Assembly: GCF_024494595.1 (NCBI RefSeq)
Contig: NZ_JANHDI010000007.1
Span: 62,001 to 126,000 of the forward strand
Length of the DNA stretch: 64,000 nt
Origin: Halobellus rarus
GTDB taxonomy: Archaea; Halobacteriota; Halobacteria; Halobacteriales; Haloferacaceae
Reading direction: 5' to 3'
In this document: positions 28,947 to 53,590 of the stretch, piece by piece
Layout: each line of letters begins with the position of its first letter
Position numbering within the stretch: position 1 is the first letter of the stretch
Translations under genes and position numbers: made by a program
Notes under the pieces: model-generated
Told to the model about the DNA's origin: nothing
The model's database searches: none
The model's input: only the letters and a program-made list of their open reading frames with translations

Positions 28947-29019
28947 GTCCTGGTAGGGTAGTGGACTATCCTCTTGGCTTGCGGAGCCAGGGACCGGAGT
29001 TCAAATCTCCGTCAGGACG
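28947..29019 (+). tRNA. tRNA-Arg (GCG)
   Basis: The plus strand folds into a cloverleaf: acceptor GTCCTGG/TCAGGAC with one G-T pair, anticodon stem TTGGC/GCCAG, loop TTGCGGA with anticodon GCG (reads CGC and CGU), T-arm GGAGTTCAAATCTCC, discriminator G. The D-arm GGGTAGTGGACTATCC is typical of archaeal tRNA-Arg. No intron and no encoded CCA. Its 3' end is duplicated downstream (see the repeat at 28997-29255). Confidence 0.92.
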
Positions 29020-29255
29020 TTTCTGCGAGACGCAACGCGACGAGCGAAGCGAGGAGTCTGCGTCTCGCGAAACTCCGAAAGGAGATTTGAGCAGCGAGCA
29101 TCGCGACGCGATGCGAGTGAGTTCAAATCTCCGTCAGGACGCTCACTTCGTTCGCGACCTGACTTGCTCCACGCTCGCGTCCGCTCGCGTGGAACTCCGT
29201 CAGGACGTTTCTGCGAGACGCAACGCGACGCGCGGAGCGAGGAGCCTGCGTCTCG
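28997..29255. repeat. tRNA-Arg 3'-end duplications with nested palindromes
   Basis: The 23 bases ending tRNA-Arg (28997-29019: T-arm to discriminator) recur exactly at 29119-29141. A 36-bp block starting inside the T-arm (29007-29042) recurs exactly at 29195-29230. Between and around these lie perfect inverted repeats: GCGAGACGCA/TGCGTCTCGC (29025-29034/29059-29068), the same stem again at 29214-29222/29247-29255, GCATCGCG/CGCGATGC (29098-29105/29107-29114), and GGAGATTTGA at 29081-29090, the reverse complement of the T-arm segment TCAAATCTCC present at 29001 and 29123. The region separates tRNA-Arg from the convergent beta-helix gene. Confidence 0.9.
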
Positions 29256-29272
29256 GAGTATCGTATGGGTTG

Positions 29273-53291: not shown

Positions 53292-53427
53292 AGGTAGATT
53301 TGAACTACGAGAATCTCGCTGGCGCTCGATTCTCTCGTTCAAATCCACTGACGCTATGACACCGAACTCGATGGACGCGCTGAGACAAGACTCAGCGCTC
53401 GGAGGTCGAGTTCGGGAAAATCATAGC
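53292..53427. repeat. Nested inverted repeats and tRNA T-arm copies downstream of initiator tRNA-Met
   Basis: The 17 bases AGGTAGATTTGAACTAC of the tRNA 3' part (53431-53447) recur exactly at 53292-53308. That copy is the left arm of a hairpin: GATTTGAAC/GTTCAAATC (53297-53305/53337-53345) around GAGAATC/GATTCTC (53309-53315/53328-53334). Immediately next is a second, longer palindrome with three nested perfect stems: GCTATGA/TCATAGC (53353-53359/53421-53427), CCGAACTCGA/TCGAGTTCGG (53362-53371/53406-53415) and GCGCTGAG/CTCAGCGC (53377-53384/53391-53398). The outermost stem overlaps the last bases of the tRNA gene. Confidence 0.9.
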
Positions 53428-53498
53428 GGGAGGTAGATTTGAACTACCGATCTCCGGGTTATGAGCCCGGCGGAATCTCCTGGCTATCCCATCCCGCT
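53424..53498 (-). tRNA. Initiator tRNA-Met (CAT)
   Basis: On the minus strand the gene begins AGCGGGATGGGATAGCC and folds as a cloverleaf with acceptor AGCGGGA/TCCCGCT, anticodon stem CCGGG/CCCGG with the G-C run typical of initiators, anticodon CAT and T-arm GGTAGTTCAAATCTACC. The A1-T72 terminal pair and the three consecutive G-C pairs next to the anticodon loop identify it as the initiator. CCA is not encoded. The 3' side is followed by large palindromes. Confidence 0.95.
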
Positions 53499-53590
53499 AT
53501 CGAAACGAAGCCGTGGGTTACGGTTAAGGGTTGTGTTTCGCCCGCAGTGTGGCAATTTCACCCGCGGGAGATTCCCGCCAGCGGCCCCGC

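Follow-up and report, generated by a model that had tools for sequence, protein, structure and literature searches.

A tRNA-anchored, apparently undescribed non-coding DNA unit with direct and inverted T-arm copies in haloarchaea

In the attC sites of integrons and in the folded attP of the CTX phage, pairing between inverted arms turns a single strand into a duplex at which recombination takes place and which carries a variable terminal hairpin; attC works in this way with one strand only, and integron cassettes accumulate beside an anchor site. A different kind of arrangement is represented by the rtT repeats of Escherichia coli (RF00391), which lie in tandem downstream of the tRNA gene tyrT, each containing a copy of the tRNA 3' end. 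Haloarchaea have general mobile repeats such as the PATEs, MITEs and SMR-A of Haloquadratum, among which PATEs are tied to IS605-type transposons and show no target duplication (PMC3119063), as well as SNJ2-type elements, which integrate at the 3' end of tRNA genes, duplicate that end as a direct copy and carry genes together with an integrase (PMC8371274). Here we report that the palindromes found behind the initiator tRNA gene of Halobellus rarus represent a single copy of a DNA unit that has apparently not been described before and that we find in haloarchaea alone. The unit is a member of a family of short, non-coding elements, fixed to tRNA 3' ends, that is found across the order Halobacteriales and lies behind up to half of the tRNAs. 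Our search of the open-access literature found no prior description of it, an earlier one in subscription papers being possible.

The unit was first noticed in a stretch of 64,000 nucleotides of H. rarus DNA (assembly GCF_024494595.1, contig NZ_JANHDI010000007.1), hereafter called the window, in which the gene for initiator tRNA-Met (cat) lies on the minus strand at 53423-53499 (ARAGORN; Rfam RF00005, 60.5 bits). Read on that strand from this anchor gene, the unit follows the plan D-a-I-b-D, D being the T-arm/acceptor end of the tRNA, a a palindromic hairpin, I an inverted copy of the T-arm, b a second hairpin and the terminal D a direct copy of the tRNA tail. By repeat search, D1 (T-arm plus 3' strand of the acceptor) spans 53424-53447 and D2, the distal direct copy of the T-arm, spans 53292-53308. 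An earlier note on this DNA had described an exact 17-bp copy of the 3' part of the tRNA in the latter position, which we find as the direct repeat AGGTAGATTTGAACTAC at 53292-53308 and 53431-53447, and an inverted copy starting at 53337, which the same search recovers as a 12-nt segment at 53337-53348 (GTTCAAATCCAC; GTGGATTTGAAC on the minus strand), 92% complementary to either direct copy over those 12 nt. The a hairpin occupies 53352-53428, as deduced from the sequence and from covariation in nine congeners, and comprises an outer stem of 8 bp (CGCTATGA, 53352-53359, with TCATAGCG, 53421-53428), a middle stem of 10 bp (CCGAACTCGA, 53362-53371, with TCGAGTTCGG, 53406-53415) and an inner stem of 8 bp (GCGCTGAG, 53377-53384, with CTCAGCGC, 53391-53398). 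The palindrome had been given stems of 7, 10 and 8 bp over 75 bp, nearly exact values that are corrected here to 8, 10 and 8 bp over 77 bp; its outer arm does overlap the tRNA 3' end, at 53421-53428. The b module, interchangeable among loci, fills the space between I and the distal D at 53309-53336 (fold; comparison of b modules), and the whole I-b-D hairpin (hp2, 53292-53348; fold and model R1 from relatives) is the part of the unit conserved across the order. The minus-strand fold of the unit has an energy of -74.6 kcal/mol compared with -40.0 +/- 3.5 in shuffled sequences (z -9.8), so far below the shuffles that the palindrome is not due to chance. BLAST searches with the whole unit against its own genome return the unit itself, the short direct copy of the tRNA and chance matches only, because a and b diverge fast.

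The same window contains a second array on the plus strand, at 28947-29260, which the earlier note considered to share the plan of the iMet site; sequence inspection and repeat search indeed reveal the same parts in the same order. Its anchor is tRNA-Arg (gcg) at 28947-29019 (ARAGORN), within which D1 covers 28997-29019 (repeats). Then follow the a hairpin at 29020-29073 (stem 29025-29034 / 29059-29068), I at 29074-29090, 82% complementary over 17 nt, the b module at 29091-29118, recognized from the sequence and from a match of model R1 at G000:C21:91083-91131 (E 0.012), and D2 at 29119-29141 (23 nt, 100%), with a, I and D2 coming from the repeat search. The same search finds, at 29195-29255, a partial D, the third of the array, and after it hairpin a once more (61 nt, 95%), indicating that duplicated segments can span D plus a.

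Equivalent units occur well beyond these two sites and are specific for their host tRNA. When direct copies of a tRNA's own 3' end were sought, at least 14 nt long and within 400 nt downstream of the tRNA, they were found at 14 of the 42 tRNAs of the window genome, against 1.3% of mismatched tRNA/flank pairs. Under a stricter definition of the plan, with I and then D in correct order within 250 nt of the tRNA, the unit is present at 9/41 tRNAs in genome G000, 13/43 in G004, 17/43 in G005 and 14/29 in G210; mismatched tRNA/flank pairs within each genome give 0.1-0.7%, upstream flanks none. The expectation that other tRNA loci of related genomes would show the layout is thereby borne out at many tRNAs of four haloarchaeal genomes. 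The family is confined to the order: the strict plan is absent from 36 tRNAs of five genomes of the phylum outside it (0/36), and a covariance model (R1), built on the I-b-D hairpins of relatives, detects the hairpin in 47 of 53 genomes of Halobacteriales and in 0 of 242 other genomes of the phylum. The units measure 85-160 bp, are non-coding and may stand in arrays of two or three, for instance behind the Asp, Lys, Pro and His tRNAs; in the case of Leu-taa of G004, two adjacent 111-bp units are identical. Many of them have in common a core that runs from I to D as GGATTYGAAYCAGGGAG, a hairpin and CGACCGTGGTTCRAATCC, the first 17 bases of which are found, with at most one mismatch, in 15 of 17 genomes of the genus, and the reversed control pattern in none. 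The distinct core occurrences among the loci collected for this count number 139, of which 119 sit 33-309 nt (median 46) downstream of a same-strand tRNA, representing 27 tRNA species; the others correspond to antisense tRNA-Phe/tRNA-Gln, to chance in other phyla, or to tRNAs undetected or beyond the stretch. A collection-wide scan with the core gave, among the matches listed, mostly Halobacteria beside tRNAs, with scattered chance matches elsewhere.

None of the known families compared here accommodates these units. They resemble the rtT repeats of E. coli in being repeats of a tRNA tail downstream of a tRNA gene, but have in addition an inverted copy, occur behind many tRNAs and extend to an entire order; cmscan of the window and three related loci gave no match to RtT (RF00391). 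Rfam likewise holds no credible match over the unit, only the tRNA and weak chance hits (the window at gathering threshold, three related loci at E<=5). Short, gene-less and rich in palindromes, the units are comparable with PATEs, MITEs and SMR-A, but unlike PATEs they are found only behind tRNAs, flanked by direct copies of the host tRNA of 17-24 nt; identity with PATEs or IS605-type elements was rejected on account of these flanking copies, the definition of PATEs involving no target duplication (PMC3119063). SNJ2-type elements use the tRNA 3' end too, from which the present units differ in being 85-160 bp long and devoid of genes. Many tRNA genes in most sampled haloarchaea are trailed by this unit, for which we found no RNA family, annotation or paper.

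The structure suggested for the iMet site covaries both there, in nine congeners, and across the order. In the nine congeners the fold of a and of I:D is kept although 7 of its pairs have changed in both partners, and the covariation score is 0.186 compared with 0.113 +/- 0.012 for shuffles and at most 0.078 for slid versions, the structure having been derived from those same nine sequences, which somewhat favors its pairing percentage. Among short-form hairpins, 14 that share one layout have 97.7% of their cells paired, against 25-46% in slid structures, and changes on both sides occur in 15 cells as against the 4.5 expected from shuffles. The tRNA-sense strand, moreover, out-folds its complement in 97 of 99 I-b-D hairpins with RNA parameters (98 of 99 with DNA parameters), and the wobble cells in the outer arm are G.T in 68 cases and A.C in 6. 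Such a pattern indicates that selection sees one folded strand and not a cruciform; the large cruciform once envisaged for the iMet site is consequently disfavored as the selected form, which is one strand folded on itself, be it RNA or single-stranded DNA. The top hairpin b varies freely on an I:D stem that is conserved, and I matches the host tRNA even where the T-loop of the latter is odd, as in tRNA-His and tRNA-Gly-ccc. D extends to the exact 3' end of the tRNA, its pairing with I being limited to the T-arm part. (A kink-turn was considered and discarded: G.A pairs in tandem could form, but the short forms of alignment A1 lack the bulge of three nucleotides.)

Whole units differ among congeners. 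The iMet locus has its unit in nine congeners and none at L262, L263, L265, L267 and L268; the flank of the empty site in L268, CTCCTGAACT, matches the distal flank of some filled sites, which places the iMet unit between the tRNA and the sequence that formerly flanked it. Behind Val-tac, G000 carries a 105-bp unit between ...GAGCCCA and CTCGGATTACG, which are joined directly in G005, and behind Lys-ttt the unit that is adjacent to the tRNA in G004 is preceded in G005, on its tRNA side, by a 125-bp unit belonging to another class. The Ser-tga locus of G004 shows an extra tRNA-proximal unit, the b module of which (GCGAGCAAATCTGTGATTTGCGAGT) reappears without change in the Phe unit of the same genome and in the Arg-gcg unit of G005, and an older downstream unit that keeps the same b as G000. 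The b modules thus recur behind different tRNAs, and they fall into several unrelated classes; modules at least 90% alike are found in 23% of same-tRNA congener pairs vs about 1% of different-tRNA pairs, as expected from mostly vertical inheritance with replacements. Within the genus the same tRNAs mostly keep their units, and a stays with its tRNA. Any unit difference at a single locus fits gain as well as loss by deletion between D copies. In one comparison of loci, reverse-strand rows whose orientation was wrong were inspected visually and left out of the counts. In G010 (L266), the iMet locus contains GTTCACCTCCCGCTA about 330 nt downstream of the tRNA, after a short open frame starting ATGACCAAGCGACTC; this copy looks like the attachment scar of another small element and does not follow the D-a-I-b-D plan.

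As the best explanation, to be taken as tentative, we propose that the units are tiny cassettes, anchored to tRNAs, for which a folded, attC-like site would allow recombination at the 3' end of the tRNA; insertion, loss and recombination are what we infer from the comparisons above. The cassettes would insert at, and be lost from, the tRNA 3' end, D serving as the attachment site. I would pair with D in single-stranded DNA to give a folded double-stranded recombination site with the variable hairpin b on top, and a tyrosine-recombinase-type enzyme or a comparable host process might then join the folded site to the tRNA gene, leaving the tRNA intact; recombination between D copies would aid tandem growth and precise loss. 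Such cassettes would explain the perfect acceptor part of D, the free variation of b and the strand bias, together with the exact junctions and the additions at the tRNA side; the extension of D to the exact tRNA 3' end, beyond the part that pairs with I, is as expected of an attachment core. The unit differences at Val-tac, Lys-ttt, Ser-tga and iMet and the identical tandem copies at Leu-taa also speak for cassettes, as does the frequency of the plan relative to mismatched pairs, upstream flanks and tRNAs outside the order. By analogy, the haloarchaeal units would work like attC sites without being members of that group: their I:D arms fold one strand, b is variable and the sense strand is the better folded in 97 of 99 hairpins, but the arms are those of a tRNA T-arm, cassette genes and a linked integrase are lacking, and each genome has many anchors. 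No linked recombinase emerged from the genomes compared, Phage_integrase genes numbering 5-13 per genome both with and without units, and the units contain no recombinase gene, having no room for one. A plain attachment-site model without added selection or copying leaves the match of I to the odd T-loops of His and Gly-ccc unexplained, and the predominance of kept units and the bond of a with its tRNA also suit a vertically inherited functional element. More doubtful is the broader proposition of a new element class, in which gene-less cassettes would use any tRNA T-arm as attachment site, insert as folded single strands and form arrays behind up to half of the order's tRNAs, with I and D copies adapted to each host tRNA. 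Mobile cassettes of this sort would amount to a gene-less system docking at tRNA genes and, for work on folded-strand recombination in archaea, would provide naturally occurring pairs of loci before and after the event.

The main rival is live, though on balance we consider it rather unlikely, namely that the unit is a structured RNA trailer co-transcribed with the tRNA, both hairpins acting in RNA for 3' protection, processing or a stable small RNA, or for sequestering I from invading the tRNA's own T-arm. It explains the strand bias and the covariation as well as the cassette model does, the former including the superior folding of the sense strand, G.U wobbles and possible tandem G.A pairs. 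The units, moreover, are always on the tRNA strand at a median of 46 nt downstream, and 56 of 71 tRNAs with D copies have no TTTT before the first copy, which makes read-through possible. In Haloferax volcanii, transcription can be terminated by hairpins that precede mapped 3' ends (PMC7237163), a further point in favor of RNA trailers. What such trailers leave aside is that about half of the tRNAs have no unit, that congeners differ, that b belongs to several unrelated classes and that the unpaired acceptor part of D is retained even if an RNA hairpin does not require it. The narrower suggestion that the unit signals processing or termination of the initiator tRNA transcript is not established: units stand behind other tRNAs as well, several congeners show none at iMet, and T-runs are alike in tRNAs with and without units. 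If the units did act as RNA, they would form a large unannotated class of structured tRNA trailers.

The constant match of D and I to the host tRNA could also arise as a by-product of replication, through a double template switch, primed by a hairpin at the tRNA 3' end, that would produce D-I-D (a duplication with an inverted middle copy), followed by slippage between D copies that would generate arrays and losses. Frequent duplication of the D-a segment beyond the tRNA (61 nt at Arg-gcg; iMet) agrees with this origin, which nevertheless appears improbable, given that it does not account for a b core common to different tRNAs and genera, for the confinement to Halobacteriales or for strand-biased selection on the fold. 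Ordinary scars of decayed proviruses or plasmids once integrated in tRNA genes have even less in their favor and are very improbable: direct copies of tRNA 3' ends are typical attachment scars (PMC8371274, PMC3119063), and the iMet locus of G010 may show one without the unit plan, but regular spacing, a conserved hairpin core and the same compact plan at 9 to about twenty tRNAs per genome are foreign to scars, and between the direct copies there are no mobile-element genes. The units are also near absent from phage, plasmid and viral collections, the hairpin core having 0 matches among plasmids, weak chance matches in phage genes only among phages, and some matches among viral contigs, with antisense tRNAs accounting for those in three contigs. 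In haloarchaeal genomes a short copy of a tRNA 3' end should accordingly not be taken automatically for a provirus scar. Least probable of all, and in fact rejected, is a CRISPR-like or casposon insertion, whereby a Cas1-type integrase would duplicate D as its target site. Arrays of repeats (D) and spacers (a-I-b) that grow on the tRNA side would suit it, as would the requirement of the Aciduliprofundum casposase for TCAAATC of the tRNA T-loop; in casposons, however, this motif is part of the leader and precedes the 14-15-bp duplication (PMC6614799), whereas D starts at GGTTC and includes the T-loop, so that the duplicated segment would be wrongly placed.

Some individual loci deserve mention in their own right. 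At L210:9380-9640 (G007:C1:196380-196640), the 3' end of tRNA-Val-cac is copied in a unit that is preceded by ATCCGCCCCGACCCA joined to non-tRNA sequence, and ARAGORN finds no tRNA-Val within 19 kb; possibly this unit marks the distal boundary of a larger element that integrated in tRNA-Val. In L350 (G005:C1:915900-919900), two tRNA-Pro(tgg) genes separated by about 2.2 kb both have behind them an inverted copy of the T-arm with the hairpin core, and in L296 (G004:C1:526600-528100) the tandem tRNA-Asp genes are three in G004 vs two in G000 and G005. Finally, the distal D is without the standard T-loop ending in up to 19 of the 99 hairpins (for example at L023, L063 and L080), and many of these non-standard copies contain one extra base (TTCACAAT, TTCAACAT, TTCAATAT).
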